From: Oscillospiraceae bacterium
Lineage (GTDB): Bacteria > Bacillota > Clostridia > Oscillospirales > Ruminococcaceae
Direction of reading: 5' to 3'
DNA: 58,821 nucleotides
NCBI GenBank assembly: GCA_017545185.1
Contig: JAFWQJ010000025.1
Location: forward strand, 1 to 58,821
How positions within the stretch are numbered: the stretch's first letter is position 1; every line of letters begins with the position of its first letter. The notes beneath the pieces were generated by a model that saw only the letters and a list, made by a program, of their open reading frames with translations, was not told the DNA's origin and searched no databases. Both the position numbers and the translations under genes were made by a program. Positions 12,144 through 53,249 of this stretch are shown here, piece by piece.

Positions 12144-13568
12144 TTACGCCAGATGCAGGATATTCAGCAGCAGCAGCCAGCTCATGCCGTAATAGGCAAC
12201 CACAGCCACAAGGTCATTGACCGTTGTGATCAGCGGGCCGGATGCGACTGCCGGGTCAATTTTCATCTTTTTGAAAAACAGCGGGATCAGCGTTCCGACT
12301 GCACTGGACACCAGCATGGCCAGCACGAGCGAAAGCCCGATACAGCCGGATACCGAGAAAGCAAATACGGCCGTTTTCTGCTTGAACAGCATGATATACA
12401 GGCCGATCGCGGCAAAGGAGATCGACCCGAGCAGAACGCCGTTGCAGAGGCCGACGCGCATTTCCTTATACACAAGTCTGCACTTCTGCTGGAAGCTGAG
12501 GTTTTCATCCGTCAGCACGCGGATCGTCACTGCAAGCGACTGTGTACCGACATTACCGGCCATGTCAAGGATCAGCGACTGGAACGCCATGATCAGCGTC
12601 AGCTGCGCGACGACCTTTTCAAAAACGCCGACAACGCTTGAAACCAGAATGCCGAGCCCGAGCAGGATCAGCAGCCATGGGATCCGCTTTTTCAGACTCT
12701 GCGGCAGCGTCTCGTTCAGATCCTCCTCTGCGGTCAGACCTGCAAATCTTGCATAGTCCTCGCCCATTTCGTCATCGACTGCTTCGATGATATTCTGCGA
12801 TGTGATGACGCCGAGCAGCTTGTTGGAATCGTCCAGCACCGGAATGATATTCTCCGAATAATCCTTCAGCTTTTCGATACAGTCAGCGGTCTGCTCGTAT
12901 GCGTAGACATAAGGGAAGGACGCCGCGATCAGCTCCTCAAGCGGACGCCCGCTTCTGGCGGTTATGAGATCCTTCAGATCGACCGCGCCGCAGAACTCCT
13001 CTGCTTCATCCACAACGAACAGCGTCGCGATATTGTCATTTTCCTCTGCCTGCCGGATCAGCTCATTCATGGCCTGCTTGATCGTCATGTCCTCGCGGAT
13101 CACGATGCAGTTTGTCGTCATGCGGCTGCCGATCTCGTCCTCGTCAAAGGATGCGATCAGCTGGATCTCCTTTTTGATATCCGAGGACAGCATGTCGATA
13201 ATGAGCGAACGCTTCTCCTTGTTGATGCTCCGCAGCGTTTCAACGGCTGTATCCGTATCAAGCTTTGAAACGATCGCTGCTGCTTTTCGGATATCCATTT
13301 CATTGAGGAATGCGCCTGCATCCTCCTCATCCAGAAACTCAAAAATTTCAGCGAGCGCGTCCGCGGAGCATACGCGGTAAAAGCGCTTGCGCTCCTGCAC
13401 GGACAGCGTCCCGATAACATTTGCGATATCGCTGCCGTGATAATCCTCGAGCTTGGACATGATCGCTTTCGGCGTGTCACTGCTCCGGATGATCGCGGTA
13501 ATTTCTCCGGTATAATCCGGCTTCATGGCTGCGGTCTCCTCCGCAGTCAGCATCTCCTTATTATCCAT
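12144..13568 (-). CDS. mgtE: Magnesium transporter MgtE
   Basis: 474 residues. ATG 13568 with GGAGG eight bases upstream is chosen over an in-frame start 20 codons earlier that has no ribosome binding site. The layout is that of the MgtE channel: a cytoplasmic N domain of repeated helices to about residue 130 (DYHGSDIANVIGTLSVQERKRFY), two CBS domains at about 135-255 that sense Mg2+, a connecting helix, then five membrane helices in the last 180 residues. The conserved pore-lining helix contains LILDMAGNVGTQSLAVTIR and the C-terminal segment NDLVAVVAYYG. The preceding 240-base leader contains a small ORF and hairpins, suggesting control after initiation. No recognisable M-box was found. Confidence 0.95.
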   Translation of the reverse strand: MDNKEMLTAEETAAMKPDYTGEITAIIRSSDTPKAIMSKLEDYHGSDIANVIGTLSVQERKRFYRVCSADALAEIFEFLDEEDAGAFLNEMDIRKAAAIVSKLDTDTAVETLRSINKEKRSLIIDMLSSDIKKEIQLIASFDEDEIGSRMTTNCIVIREDMTIKQAMNELIRQAEENDNIATLFVVDEAEEFCGAVDLKDLITARSGRPLEELIAASFPYVYAYEQTADCIEKLKDYSENIIPVLDDSNKLLGVITSQNIIEAVDDEMGEDYARFAGLTAEEDLNETLPQSLKKRIPWLLILLGLGILVSSVVGVFEKVVAQLTLIMAFQSLILDMAGNVGTQSLAVTIRVLTDENLSFQQKCRLVYKEMRVGLCNGVLLGSISFAAIGLYIMLFKQKTAVFAFSVSGCIGLSLVLAMLVSSAVGTLIPLFFKKMKIDPAVASGPLITTVNDLVAVVAYYGMSWLLLLNILHLA

Positions 13569-13593
13569 GGGTTCGTCCTCCGTTTCATTTGAT

Positions 13594-13668
13594 CGGAGCG
13601 ATGCTCCGTAAACTGGCGTGAGGGACAAATGGGCATAATAATCCCGTGTTGCCGAAGGACAGCACGGG
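13594..13668 (-). promoter_or_regulatory. Two leader hairpins upstream of mgtE
   Basis: A compact hairpin CGGAGC-GAT-GCTCCG (13594-13608) lies just upstream of the mgtE ribosome binding site. A larger one (13643-13668, CCCGTG with CACGGG arms, extendable by an AT-rich outer stem) begins right after the small leader ORF stop. Neither is followed by a T-run, so translation control or a pausing role is as likely as transcription termination. Confidence 0.5.
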
Positions 13669-13677
13669 CAGGAAATA

Positions 13678-13782
13678 TTATATCACGAAAAACAAAGCCG
13701 AAAACAGGTTGCGGCGTTTATTTCTTGTCATACAACAGTTCCGTAATCGTCCGTTTGACCCGCTACAATCGCCGTTAGCCAC
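13678..13782 (-). CDS. 34-residue leader ORF upstream of mgtE
   Basis: Starts at GTG 13782, eight bases after a full AGGAGGT (13791-13797), and ends in TAA at 13678. It lies about 25 bases downstream of the predicted transcription start, inside the mgtE leader RNA. The peptide begins MANGDCSGSNGRLRN, has a Cys-Cys pair, a basic patch (TRNKRRN) and a hydrophobic end (LFSALFFVI). The good ribosome site and position argue that it is translated, in the manner of leader peptides that control Mg2+ transporters such as MgtL of Salmonella mgtA. No similarity to MgtL is claimed. The stop codon falls in the extended base of the next hairpin, which would let ribosome position alter folding. Confidence 0.55.
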   Translation of the reverse strand: MANGDCSGSNGRLRNCCMTRNKRRNLFSALFFVI

Positions 13783-13816
13783 CTGTTTTCACCTCCTGAA
13801 ATCTGAGTTCTATTCC

Positions 13817-13845
13817 ATTATAGCATAAGGACGGATAAATGTCAA
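13817..13845 (-). promoter_or_regulatory. Consensus sigma-A promoter of mgtE
   Basis: Minus-strand TTGACA (13840-13845), 17-base spacer, TATAAT (13817-13822): a perfect consensus. The predicted start near 13808 gives a leader of about 240 nucleotides before mgtE. Confidence 0.9.
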
Positions 13846-13906: not shown

Positions 13907-15340
13907 TTATGCGCGGTAAATGATATCGCCGAGCATCAGGTCGCGCTCCAGACCCTCACAGGTCGTGGATGCATTGATCGGGACAAGCTCGATCTTCATG
14001 ATGCGGGCAAAATCGCGGATCGCTTCGTCCGTGATATCAAACGAGAGAACAGTATGATGTGCGCCGCCTGCGATGATCCAGCATTCCAGTCCCTTGAGGA
14101 AGGACGGCTGCGGCTTCCACATGGCGCGGGCGACCGGCAGATTCGGCATGGACTGGAACGGTTTTTCGCAGGTGACATCCTGCACGATCAGGCGCAGTCT
14201 GCCGCCGGCGTCGATCATCGAAAGCACCTTTGCCGCACCGGCTCTGCCTTCAAACACGATGCGGGCAGGCGGTTCCTTGCCGCCGATGCCGAGCGGATGC
14301 ACCTCAATGCGCGGGCGGTCTGCTGCGATGCAGGGATCGACCTCCAGCATGTGTGCGCCGAGAATCAGCTCGTGCTCATAGTCGTAGGTATAGTCCTCCA
14401 TGAAGGATGCCTGTCCGTCCGGATACATCGCCTTGATGACCGCGACCAGACCCGCGGTTTTCCAGTCACCCTCCGCACCGAAGCCGTAGCCTTTGTGCAT
14501 CAGATGCTGCGTTGCAAGACCCGGAAGCTGCTTCATGCCGTAAAGATCCTCGAAGGTATTGGAAAATGCCTTTGCACCCTCACGGACAAGGATCTTCTCG
14601 ATCGCGATCTCCTCGCGTGCCTGATAGCGGATCGGCTCGATATCCTTCTGATCGAAGTCATAGAGCTTTTCGTATTCCGCGACCAGTGTGTCGATCTCCG
14701 CCTCAGTCACTGCGTCCATTTCTTTGACCAGATCGCCGACTGCCCATGTGTTGACCTGCCAGCCGAGCGTCATCTGCACACCGACCTTATCGCCCTCGGT
14801 CACAGCGACCTGACGCATATTGTCGCCGAAACGGACGATCTTCAGGTCACGGCTGAACAGAGCGCCGATCGCGGCACGCTGCCAGTCACCAATCTTCTGC
14901 TGGACGGCGGGATCCTGCCAGTGACCCGCCACGACTGCACGCGGCAGGCGCATTCTTGCGCCGATGAAGCCGTGCTCACGGTCGCCGTGTGCGGACTGAT
15001 GCAGATTCATATAGTCCATGTCGATCGCGTCATTCGGGATCGCTGCATTGAACTGCGTATGGAAATGCAGCCACGGCTTCTGCAGCAGGTTCAGACCGTT
15101 GATCCACATTTTCGACGGAGAGAACGTGTGGCAGAACGTGATAATACCGGCACATTCATCGTCAAAATTTGCCTCGCGGACAAGCTTCACGATCTCGTCA
15201 TTTGATTTTGCGGTCAGCTTGTATTCCACCGGGAACGGCAGCTTCAGACCGGCTACGATCTCTTTGGAATCTGCCTCGACCTGCCGGAGCGTTTCCTCTC
15301 CGTACATCTTCTGTGATCCGGTAACAAACCAGAATTTCAT
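13907..15340 (-). CDS. araA: L-arabinose isomerase
   Basis: 477 residues, close to the family length. Start ATG 15340 after AAGGAAGG; upstream in-frame codons have no ribosome site and lie in the kinase gene. It converts L-arabinose to L-ribulose with a Mn2+ ion. Metal and catalytic landmarks are visible: TFCHTFSPSKMWI and HFHTQFN in the N-terminal half, EGDWKTAG with the conserved Glu, MEDYTYD with the second Glu, GAHMLEVDP, and two His in the C-terminal half (IEVHPLGIGGKEPPAR and GGAHHTVLS). It is the last gene of an import-and-catabolism operon. L-ribulose-5-phosphate 4-epimerase (araD) is not in this window. Confidence 0.96.
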   Translation of the reverse strand: MKFWFVTGSQKMYGEETLRQVEADSKEIVAGLKLPFPVEYKLTAKSNDEIVKLVREANFDDECAGIITFCHTFSPSKMWINGLNLLQKPWLHFHTQFNAAIPNDAIDMDYMNLHQSAHGDREHGFIGARMRLPRAVVAGHWQDPAVQQKIGDWQRAAIGALFSRDLKIVRFGDNMRQVAVTEGDKVGVQMTLGWQVNTWAVGDLVKEMDAVTEAEIDTLVAEYEKLYDFDQKDIEPIRYQAREEIAIEKILVREGAKAFSNTFEDLYGMKQLPGLATQHLMHKGYGFGAEGDWKTAGLVAVIKAMYPDGQASFMEDYTYDYEHELILGAHMLEVDPCIAADRPRIEVHPLGIGGKEPPARIVFEGRAGAAKVLSMIDAGGRLRLIVQDVTCEKPFQSMPNLPVARAMWKPQPSFLKGLECWIIAGGAHHTVLSFDITDEAIRDFARIMKIELVPINASTTCEGLERDLMLGDIIYRA

Positions 15341-15356
15341 GTTAAAACCTTCCTTC

Positions 15357-16949
15357 TCAGAGTTCACTGACGGCAGCCCGTTCTGCTGCAAGTCCTGCAC
15401 AATATACGTCCATATATCTGCCGATCCCGTCAAGATCGGACTGCTTCGGGGAAACGGTGATTCCCTGCATATCTGCAAACACATGACGGTTCAGATACTC
15501 GGAAAGCGTTTCCGCACGGTTTTCCCGCACCATATACGCGGCCAGCAGCGCAATGCCCCATGCACCGCCCTCGCCTGCCGACTGCATCAGCGTGACATCC
15601 GCATTCAGCACCGCAGCCAGAACCGGCTGAGTCACCGACGGATTCTTGAACAGTCCGCCGTGCGCGTAAATGCGGTCAAGCTGCACATGCTCCTCACGGA
15701 TCAGGATATCATTGCCGAGTTTCAGCGTCGCCATGCAGGAATACACCAGACTGCGCATCAGATCGGCTGCGTTGAACGGCGTATCCGGCGAGCGCATCAG
15801 CAACGGTCTGCCGCCTGCAAGTCCGGTGATCTGCTCTCCGGCAAAGTAATTGTAGGAGATGACGCTGCCGCAATCGGGACTTCCCTCTGCCGCAAGCGAA
15901 TAAAGCAGATCGTAAAGCGCACCCTTTGACAGCTCTTTTCCGGCAGCTTTCATCACCTGACCGAACATATTGACCCATGCGTCCAGATCGGATGAGCAGT
16001 TGTTGCAGTGCACCATTGCGACCGGATCGCCGGCCGGTGTTGTCACAATGTCGATCTCCCGGTGCACGGCACAGAGATTCCGTTCCAGCACGATCATCGA
16101 GAAGATCGAAGTTCCGGCAGACACATTGCCGGTTTTCGGCGTGATGCTGTTCGTCGCGGCCATACCGGTCTGCGCATCGCCCTCCGGCGGGCAGAACGGT
16201 ACGTCTGCCTGAAATGTTCCTGTCGGGTCAAGTAGTTTGGCACCTGCTTCCGTCAGTGTACCGGCGATCTCACCGACCGGTACGATCTCCGGCAGAATAT
16301 CGGTAAGACTCTGCTGAAACGGCGTATCAGCGGTCATATCCGCAAAGATACCGCACATTTTCGCATCATAGCCGCCGGTACCCGGGTCGATCGGGAACAT
16401 GCCGGATGCATCACCGACGCCGAGCACCTTTTTGCCGGTCAGCAGCCAGTGTACATATCCGGCGAGCGTCGTCAGGAAACGGATCTGCCCGACATGTGCT
16501 TCTCCGTTCAGGATCGCCTGATACAGATGCGCAATGCTCCACCGCTGCGGAATGTTGAACGCGAAAGCGTCCGTTAGCTTTTCCGCGGCTTCTTCGGTCA
16601 TGGTATTGCGCCATGTCCGGAACGGCGCCAGCAGATTGCCGTCCGCATCAAATGCAAGGTAGCCGTGCATCATAGCCGAGATGCCGAAGCCTGCACAGGT
16701 CGTCAGCTTTTCGCCGTAGGTCTCCTCAACATTCTTCATCAGATCGGCAAAGCACGCCTGAAGCCCCTCTCGGACCGCATCCAGCGAATACGTCCAGACG
16801 CCGTCCGCAAGCTGGTTGCACCAGTCATGGACACCGGATGCAAGCGGCTGATGATCCGGCCCCGTCAGCACCGCCTTGATGCGCGTGGAACCGAACTCAA
16901 TGCCGATACAGGTGTTCCCGTTATGAATCGCATTTTCTGTATTATTCAT
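15357..16949 (-). CDS. FGGY carbohydrate kinase, probable L-ribulokinase
   Basis: 530 residues, ATG 16949 after AAGGAG. The N-terminal phosphate motif is IGIEFGSTRIKAVLTG, the middle has TGNVSAGTSIFSM (second phosphate site), and the C-terminal adenosine motif is YAHGGLFKNP. These mark the FGGY sugar kinase fold. The place between the importer and araA, 16 bases before araA, makes L-ribulose the expected substrate. The sequence differs from E. coli AraB and may be nearer the xylulokinase branch used in clostridial arabinose operons, so no symbol is assigned. It lies three bases after the permease gene. Confidence 0.85.
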   Translation of the reverse strand: MNNTENAIHNGNTCIGIEFGSTRIKAVLTGPDHQPLASGVHDWCNQLADGVWTYSLDAVREGLQACFADLMKNVEETYGEKLTTCAGFGISAMMHGYLAFDADGNLLAPFRTWRNTMTEEAAEKLTDAFAFNIPQRWSIAHLYQAILNGEAHVGQIRFLTTLAGYVHWLLTGKKVLGVGDASGMFPIDPGTGGYDAKMCGIFADMTADTPFQQSLTDILPEIVPVGEIAGTLTEAGAKLLDPTGTFQADVPFCPPEGDAQTGMAATNSITPKTGNVSAGTSIFSMIVLERNLCAVHREIDIVTTPAGDPVAMVHCNNCSSDLDAWVNMFGQVMKAAGKELSKGALYDLLYSLAAEGSPDCGSVISYNYFAGEQITGLAGGRPLLMRSPDTPFNAADLMRSLVYSCMATLKLGNDILIREEHVQLDRIYAHGGLFKNPSVTQPVLAAVLNADVTLMQSAGEGGAWGIALLAAYMVRENRAETLSEYLNRHVFADMQGITVSPKQSDLDGIGRYMDVYCAGLAAERAAVSEL

Positions 16950-34372: not shown

Positions 34373-34427
34373 CATGTGCTCGTTGAACGGATTTGTATGC
34401 GCCTTCACCGGCGGAAAAATACAAAAA

Positions 34428-34619
34428 CCCGGTCAGCACTCCACAAAGCAGAAGCCTGCTCTGTGACAGTCACGCACTTGTTCAGTGCGCGCCCAGCCGC
34501 AGCGATGCCGTATCGCTTTTGGCTTCGGCGGTCTTGCCTTTTTTACCGGATTCTGGTTCGTTACCCCGGGTCGGCACCCTCATCCGGCAGGACTCATCAA
34601 GCCCGCGCCTCTGTCCGTG
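34428..34619 (-). promoter_or_regulatory. Lysine riboswitch (L box)
   Basis: On the minus strand the conserved aptamer parts appear in order: GGACAGAGGCGCGGG, TGATGAGTCCTGCC, AAAAAGGCAAGACCGCCGAAGC, GGCTGGGCGCGCACTGAAC, AAGTGCGTGACTGTCAC and GTGGAGTGCT. The five-way junction order matches the lysC leader of Bacillus. Downstream are a terminator and the diaminopimelate genes, so lysine binding should stop transcription of the whole operon. Confidence 0.93.
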
Positions 34620-34624
34620 TTCTT

Positions 34625-52321: not shown

Positions 52322-53249
52322 ATTTCTTTTTGCGGAGAAGGATAAATGCAACGATCGACGTCAGGATCAGCGTAATGATGATCGAATAGACCCACGAGCT
52401 CTTGAACGGCAGCGTATCCGTGTTGATGCCGTAGAACGCAAAGATGATGTTCGGGATCTCGATGATGACCGTGATGATCGTCAAACGCCACATGACCGAG
52501 TTCTGGTTGTTCGCAATGACATACGAAAACGCGTCCATCATTGCGGAGATAACGCCGCTGTAAATGGTCGCCATTTCGACTGCCTGCCGGAACTCAATGC
52601 CGACATCGTCCATTAAGTCCTCGTCCTCGGGATAGAGCTTTAACGCTCTGCCGCGCTGGATCTTCTCGATCGTGACAAGATTCGCTTTCAGGGAAGTGGT
52701 GAAGTAAACGAGCGACTTCTCCAGTCCCATGAGCTGTACGATCTCCTGATTCTTCATCGCGCCGCTTAATTCCTGCTCCATGGAATAGGAAATTTTGTCG
52801 ATCTGTTTCAGGTAAAAGACGAAGCCCGCGGAGATCTGCATGAGCACCTGCAGGATGAACCGCGTCCGGAACTCCGTCTGGATATTGGAGATCTTGCCGT
52901 CAGCCATAGCCGCAAGCACCTGATTGCGCCGCAGCGAAATGGTAAAGACCATATCCGAGGTATTGATGATGCCGAGCGGGACGGTATAGAACTGATAGGT
53001 CTCGCTTTTTTCGAGTTTCTCCGCGACGGCGGTATCGACGATGACAAGCGTCTGGCTGCCCTCGCGCTCGATACGGGAGGATTCCTCCTCGTCAAGGCAG
53101 GAGCGAACAAAGCCGGTATCCAGCCCGAATTCCTCGGTCATTCTGCCGATCTCCTCCTGTGTCGGTTCGTAGACGGAGATCCAGCAGCCGGGCTCGGCCT
53201 GATCGACCGGGGTGATCCTGCCGTTGATCGTTTTGTAGATGTGGATCAT
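52317..53249 (-). CDS. corA: CorA family divalent metal transporter
   Basis: 310 residues, ATG 53249 after GGGAGG. A soluble N-terminal funnel domain to about residue 245 with a long helix (SGAMKNQEIVQLMGLEKSLVYFT), then two C-terminal membrane helices. The pore signature, GMN in nearly all CorA proteins, reads FYGIN here, a Met-to-Ile change. The C-terminal basic tail LLRKKKF is typical. It should import Mg2+ or a related ion. The change could alter selectivity. The last codons overlap the mosaic repeat. Confidence 0.9.
   Translation of the reverse strand: MIHIYKTINGRITPVDQAEPGCWISVYEPTQEEIGRMTEEFGLDTGFVRSCLDEEESSRIEREGSQTLVIVDTAVAEKLEKSETYQFYTVPLGIINTSDMVFTISLRRNQVLAAMADGKISNIQTEFRTRFILQVLMQISAGFVFYLKQIDKISYSMEQELSGAMKNQEIVQLMGLEKSLVYFTTSLKANLVTIEKIQRGRALKLYPEDEDLMDDVGIEFRQAVEMATIYSGVISAMMDAFSYVIANNQNSVMWRLTIITVIIEIPNIIFAFYGINTDTLPFKSSWVYSIIITLILTSIVAFILLRKKKF

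Follow-up and report, generated by a model that had tools for sequence, protein, structure and literature searches.

In Firmicutes, Mg2+ transporter genes are controlled in cis by the M-box (ykoK) riboswitch, RF00380. The window analysed here, a 58,821-nucleotide stretch of contig JAFWQJ010000025.1 from an Oscillospiraceae bacterium, carries an mgtE gene behind a leader of ∼240 nucleotides (from the expected transcript start, placed from the -10 box, to the mgtE ATG at 13568), and the locus raises the question of what governs mgtE where this riboswitch is missing. The initial annotation had seen no M-box in front of the gene, and neither the leader nor the rest of the window's genome yielded an RF00380 covariance-model match over the gathering score; in the control, the M-box search was positive in 2 of 14 genomes, those of B. 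subtilis and L. lactis. At E≤10 the leader drew four Rfam matches (best E 2.3), each scoring well short of its gathering threshold, and no known Mg2+ or Mn2+ riboswitch was matched there. The window's one Rfam match over threshold is a lysine riboswitch at 34426-34621 (minus strand, 94.7 bits). Phage records with DNA similar to the locus were sought, and none was found.

All parts of the leader, like mgtE itself, lie on the minus strand of the window (Table 1). mgtE is the sole PF01769 match in the window's genome; a CorA-family transporter is encoded within the same window at 52335-53186 (minus strand, 7e-44). The promoter, annotated from the start as a perfect sigma-A site, does match the consensus at every position; at a scan threshold of 9/12, shuffles of the 2.8-kb region contained a mean of 1.9 promoter-like sites. 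Just upstream of it, a strong terminator-like hairpin (13892-13866, minus strand) follows an ORF at 13907-15484, whose product presumably resembles arabinose isomerase. The leader had also been correctly described as holding a 34-codon upstream ORF (uORF) with a full Shine-Dalgarno (SD) site of its own. The uORF stop had been placed in the base of an extended hairpin; it falls in the 3' arm of an alternative rod, immediately 3' of the main hairpin in the predicted fold. The predicted minimum free energy (MFE) fold of the window's leader (-86.8 kcal/mol, z -2.67, equalled by 2 of 200 shuffles) pairs the mgtE SD and ATG with positions 13618-13631.

Table 1. Features of the mgtE leader and gene, numbered along the window.
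Feature	Position	Strand	Basis or remark
Sigma-A promoter, TTGACA-N17-TATAAT	13817..13845	-	12/12 consensus match; TG before the -10 box
uORF Shine-Dalgarno, AGGAGGT	13791..13797	-	Sequence; purine-rich SD kept in the leader alignment
uORF, 34 codons + TAA, GTG start, MANGDCSGSNGR...	13678..13782	-	GTG at 13782, TAA at 13680-13678; conserved in mgtE relatives
Region 1: uORF from its SD through codon 6; partner of region 2b (H1)	13765..13798	-	Swap tests
Region 2a (A): uORF codons 7-13; antiterminator with terminator 5' arm	13744..13764	-	Swap tests
Region 2b (S'): codons late in the uORF; complement of region 1, or part of the A-B rod	13693..13722	-	Pairing and folds
Region 3 (B): terminator 5' arm and loop	13654..13672	-	Pairing with region 2a
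Intrinsic-terminator-like hairpin B:C and U-rich tail	13634..13668	-	Hairpin 13668-13643; family-level control
Anti-SD strand D	13615..13631	-	Swap tests; pairing in the window's MFE fold
mgtE Shine-Dalgarno GGAGGAC and ATG	13566..13581	-	Paired with strand D in the MFE fold
mgtE	12144..13568	-	MgtE_N, CBS and MgtE domains

The reading frame noticed in the window is conserved. Relatives were taken from the best 80 of 366 MgtE protein matches, each with up to 1500 bases upstream, and searched with a pattern requiring D-S-x-G (or D-C-S-G) close to the start of an ORF. The pattern matched 66 of the 80 relatives and the window; of the other 14, 10 proved on looser inspection to have the uORF, with longer or deviating N-termini, and were kept out of the alignment, codon counts and pairing tests. 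Among these best 80 of 366 matches, the uORF thus stands before mgtE in 76 of the 79 relatives with upstream sequence. Four relatives are without it: one (L058) has no upstream DNA, and, judged by eye, two (L041, L060) lack the leader, their mgtE following closely on an ORF that contains a GGDEF-like stretch, while the last (L042) has a promoter near mgtE and no uORF.

The encoded peptide reads roughly M-[A/T/S]-N-[G/S]-D-S-[C/H/Y]-G-S-[N/D]-G-R and is variable beyond; conservation is concentrated in codons 1-8, around a near-invariant (G/S)-D-S (D-S-C is replaced by D-C-S in the window and the two relatives nearest to it). Asp occupies codon 5 in 66 of 67 uORFs and codon 4 in the other, and the start codon is GTG in 64 of the 67. 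Lineages diverge at the C-terminus in both sequence and length, giving uORFs of 26-44 codons. Since the uORFs had been selected through a motif near their start, the count of stops was limited to codons 13-25: in the uORF frame they occur there in 0 of 61 leaders, and in the two alternative frames in 26 and 33 (before codon 26, where the motif-based choice biases the count, the figures by frame are 0, 27 and 55 of 61).

How might such an ORF act? The initial annotation had suggested a peptide rich in Cys and Arg/Lys, with a hydrophobic tail, that could stall ribosomes in response to Mg2+. These residues are not conserved, and the stretch encoding them is an RNA strand that pairs with the uORF start region; stalling by a C-terminal peptide was therefore rejected, the C-terminus being variable and shaped by RNA pairing. 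An amino-acid attenuator was rejected as well, since by eye none of the 67 uORF peptides has repeated control codons for one amino acid. Of the early acidic or proline residues expected in the nascent peptide of a Mg2+-responsive, translation-aborting leader (mgtL/mgtQ type), these peptides show one Asp and no conserved Pro or Glu. In one nine-locus lineage (L070, L073, L077, L083, L089, L092, L100, L103 and L108), with the uORF motif GDSCGGKC, this motif is followed by a K-P-P-H stretch conserved in 9/9 loci, unlike the variable C-termini elsewhere, which could mark a second constrained site.

Between the uORF and mgtE lies a terminator-like hairpin that was absent from the first account of the locus. 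Hairpins of -11 kcal/mol or below with a U-run were found in 52 of 66 leaders, as against 8 of 132 shuffles, and the median distance from the uORF stop to the hairpin is 19 bases. In the window, the hairpin is followed by an interrupted U-run, ATTATTATG, and a simple terminator scan did not pick it up. Six of the 67 leaders, with no or only a weak terminator-like hairpin, were excluded from the pairing tests; five more, in which the hairpin starts before the uORF stop, were excluded from the folding and blocking counts and from the shuffle test of the rod, and one further leader with short upstream DNA was excluded from the block control.

The leader RNA can be divided into competing pairings, 1:2, 2:3 and 3:4, in which the uORF would span regions 1 and 2, and regions 3 and 4 would form the arms of the terminator. 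Region 1 can pair with the final ∼10 codons of its own uORF (region 2b). Codons 7-13 (region 2a, or A; GC GGG TCA AAC GGG CGA in many leaders) are complementary to the terminator 5' arm and loop (region 3, or B; GCCCGUAUGUGACC in several), a pairing that would exclude the terminator and serve as antiterminator. This A:B complementarity is weaker in the window, which has GGAC where its relatives have GGGC. Natural compensations in A:B occur as GGGCA/UGCCC in L049 and L052, GGGACA/UGUCCC in L076 and GGUACAAAC/GUUUGUAUC in L093 and L094.

Swap tests, in which a leader's own arms are compared with arms taken from other leaders, argue for both of these pairings. Across 61 leaders, A:B averaged -19.4 kcal/mol for own arms, -16.8 for swapped and -12.6 for shuffled arms (0/5000 permutations); region 1 against the whole inner stretch gave -26.2, -21.4 and -18.4, respectively (0/2000). 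When the leaders were reduced to representatives with MgtE identity below 90, 80 and 75% (44, 22 and 13 leaders), a procedure that thins out relatedness without modelling it, own pairs still beat swapped ones in 0/5000 permutations at each level for both A:B and region 1:2b. An earlier clustering by gapped uORF identity (10, 14 and 4 representatives) was poor and was replaced by MgtE identity; it had given 57, 294 and 1693 of 5000 for A:B, not significant at 4 representatives, and 4, 0 and 248 of 5000 for region 1:2b. By these computational tests, regions 1:2b and 2a:3 are shown to co-evolve. For the hairpin over the mgtE SD (D:E), the swap test lent support with 44 representatives (5 of 5000) and 22 (28 of 5000), not with 13 (433 of 5000), and no excess was seen in swap tests of region 1 with D or B. 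A three-way switch through an A:D pairing was considered and set aside: complementarity is visible, and swap tests were inconsistent (119/2000; 48, 1745 and 74 of 5000).

Folded alone, the stretch from codon 7 to the terminator arm forms a long rod with at least 8 A:B pairs in 59 of 61 leaders, and its inner part exceeds dinucleotide shuffles in stability (mean z -2.5, with 48 of 56 leaders below -1).

Codon usage in the uORF bears the mark of these constraints. At conserved N-terminal positions the codons are fixed to the rare synonyms AGT, GGG, TCA and CGA: of the 64 uORFs with Ser at codon 6, 61 use AGT (10% of the Ser codons of mgtE genes), Gly8 is GGG in 57 of 67 (10%) and, of the 49 with Arg at codon 12, 46 use CGA (5%), which implies that the nucleotides themselves matter. 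The antiterminator explains the choice at codons 8-12 and leaves the fixed AGT at codon 6 unexplained; the latter points to an RNA-level constraint at the N-terminus, for which a peptide sensor does not account either. At the amino acid level, pN/pS is below 1 in 35 close pairs, which are not independent of one another (0.33 for codons 2-8, 0.65 for the rest). Both peptide and RNA thus seem to constrain the uORF. The pN/pS values would also suit a functional small protein with merely incidental RNA pairing, a reading that we regard as very improbable given a C-terminal part that varies in sequence and length (26-44 codons) between lineages and RNA pairings that co-evolve.

The same rare codons could be taken as traces of a riboswitch-like RNA in which the conserved stretch around GUG..GACAGU and the rod would themselves detect Mg2+ or another ligand, with the uORF secondary; that rod and terminator are predicted without any translation fits such an RNA too. 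Against it, an SD, a start codon and an open frame to near the terminator are kept in the aligned leaders while the intervening sequence changes, and the conserved stretch is short and mostly accounted for by the antiterminator strand or the uORF start, so that little of it could serve as an aptamer. Direct sensing by the RNA therefore appears improbable to us.

Whether the pairings could act as a switch was assessed by folding 56 leaders with and without region 1 blocked. In free RNA extending to the end of the terminator, 1:2 formed in 36 leaders, the terminator in 49 and the antiterminator in 7. Blocking region 1 in the complete RNA raised the antiterminator from 7/56 to 30/56, with the terminator still present in 28/56; with more upstream RNA (55 leaders), the antiterminator formed in 27 under the region-1 block, in 10 when free and in 8 when an equal block was placed upstream. 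Before the terminator 3' arm is made, the antiterminator formed in 54/56 leaders with region 1 blocked and in 41/56 free; a repeat on truncated RNA with the control gave 53/55 blocked, 44 free and 42 with the upstream block. Since the rod already wins in 41/56 free truncated RNAs, the state without a ribosome is uncertain. A mask imitating a ribosome at the uORF stop gave the same outcome as no ribosome in complete RNA (antiterminator in 7, terminator in 47 of 56), and in truncated RNA the rod remained in 33/56. For the window itself, blocking region 1 switches the fold from 1:2 to the rod before the terminator 3' arm is present and does not flip the MFE fold of the RNA with a full terminator; in the truncated RNA, a small control block placed upstream also removed 1:2, and the antiterminator was not formed. 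In these models, the switch is weaker in the window than in its relatives.

We consider it probable that the mgtE leader is a ribosome-mediated transcription attenuator, in which the progress of a ribosome on the uORF decides whether mgtE is transcribed. At the level of sequence, the leader has an SD-led, in-frame conserved ORF, an intrinsic-terminator-like hairpin (at family level), an antiterminator and a 1:2 pairing that a ribosome could prevent; translation of the uORF, the switching and its sign we infer from these features. A ribosome held at the first uORF codons would cover region 1 only, permit the 2:3 rod to form as antiterminator and leave mgtE ON. One running on to the uORF stop would unwind region 2, so that the terminator 3:4 would form and mgtE would be OFF; the clearing of region 2 by full translation is reasoned here from the way in which ribosomes unwind RNA. 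With no ribosome, 1:2 and 3:4 would probably be favored and mgtE would probably, with some uncertainty, be OFF.

The range of the element and its tie to mgtE were examined with a uORF model built on sequence only and covering the first 60 bases of the element. Matches to this model turned up in 27 of the 396 genomes sampled for the family, 5 of 394 for the order, 8 of 391 for the class and 3 of 348 for the phylum; the samples overlap, each includes the window's genome, and the strict filters make these genome counts lower bounds. Each genome with a match has it in one place; in the window's genome, too, the model matches once, and no match lies upstream of the CorA-family gene. Found by the uORF model alone, 33 of 36 loci (L111-L146) have mgtE just downstream; 14 of the 36 are places used to build the model, and outside this set mgtE comes next in 19 of 22. 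The three loci without mgtE are one at a contig end (L123) and two weak partial matches (L141, L146). By eye, three loci of a distant family (L142, L143 and L144), which lie outside the pairing tests, share the uORF start, as MDAGDSCDKRGKR, and have a terminator-like hairpin in front of mgtE.

Which signal would such an attenuator read? From the gene controlled, and by analogy with the acidic-codon mechanism of Salmonella mgtQ, we infer low Mg2+: ribosomes may pause or abort at the near-invariant (G/S)DS when Mg2+ is low, as at the acidic codons of mgtQ. It is accordingly possible, and we put it forward tentatively, that in Clostridia the ribosome itself is the Mg2+ sensor, a low-Mg2+ abort at (G/S)DS opening region 1 and keeping the intrinsic terminator off, independently of the enterobacterial leaders and in place of an M-box. 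The same folds might instead answer to the general state of translation (initiation rate, amino-acid or ribosome-drug stress). The lack of a repeated codon for any one amino acid would agree with that, the GTG start in 64/67 suggests tuned initiation, and region 1 (-16 to +18) is about the size of an initiating-ribosome footprint. A signal so general sits poorly with an element that occurs once per matching genome and has mgtE next to it in 19 of the 22 loci outside the model's building set, and we think it rather unlikely.

The conserved family of candidate mgtE attenuators, with low Mg2+ as its putative signal, is real and, as far as searched, undescribed. In the open-licence literature searched, mostly through titles and abstracts, no report describes an attenuator or leader ORF upstream of mgtE in Firmicutes. 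The early suggestion of an unrecorded attenuator type at this locus survives in its conserved leader ORF and in the lack of a match to known Mg2+ or Mn2+ riboswitches, and fails in the Cys/Arg stalling mode that it assumed. If the proposed mechanism is correct, a group of gut and rumen bacteria would use an unrecorded regulator of a Mg2+ importer, suggesting that ribosome behavior has been recruited convergently to gauge Mg2+. Being short and clearly bounded, with natural compensations, the element is directly testable.

Among known systems, the M-box likewise controls Mg2+ transporter genes in cis and is absent from the mgtE leader. The mgtL and corA leaders of enterobacteria also have a leader ORF before a Mg2+ transporter gene; termination is Rho-dependent there and would be intrinsic in the mgtE leader. 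The trpL attenuator has a uORF, a competing antiterminator and intrinsic terminator, and regions 1:2, 2:3 and 3:4, a layout that the mgtE leader shares. Unlike trp-type attenuators, the mgtE leader has no run of control codons and precedes a Mg2+ transporter gene; its uORF covers regions 1 and 2, so that the uORF start region is itself region 1. The ilvB uORF of Corynebacterium, in the available part of PMC11109978, belongs to an attenuator with a competing antiterminator and intrinsic terminator, to which, as to trpL, the mgtE leader is alike. The same portion of that source describes an mgtE motif found only in Thioalkalivibrio and filed as a riboswitch candidate, also a structured leader before mgtE that includes the SD; it is set apart, by this description, by its taxon and by having no uORF described (PMC11109978). 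In the main texts of PMC8632094 and PMC2965389 the word mgtE is absent. Nearest in principle, together with trpL, are Salmonella mgtQ and mgtM/mgtP, which, in the accessible parts of PMC8092293 and PMC3641672, likewise combine a short ORF, alternative 1:2 + 3:4 or 2:3 stem-loops and a Mg2+ transporter gene. According to the part of PMC8092293 available, mgtQ needs acidic codons 2 and 5, which destabilise ribosomes, where the mgtE-leader uORF has an Asp at codon 5 in 66/67, and mgtQ acts on translation via the mgtB ribosome-binding site inside an operon. The leader described here differs from it (PMC8092293, same part) in serving mgtE, in its intrinsic-terminator-like hairpin and in belonging to another phylum, and the likeness is one of layout, with no sequence relation claimed.
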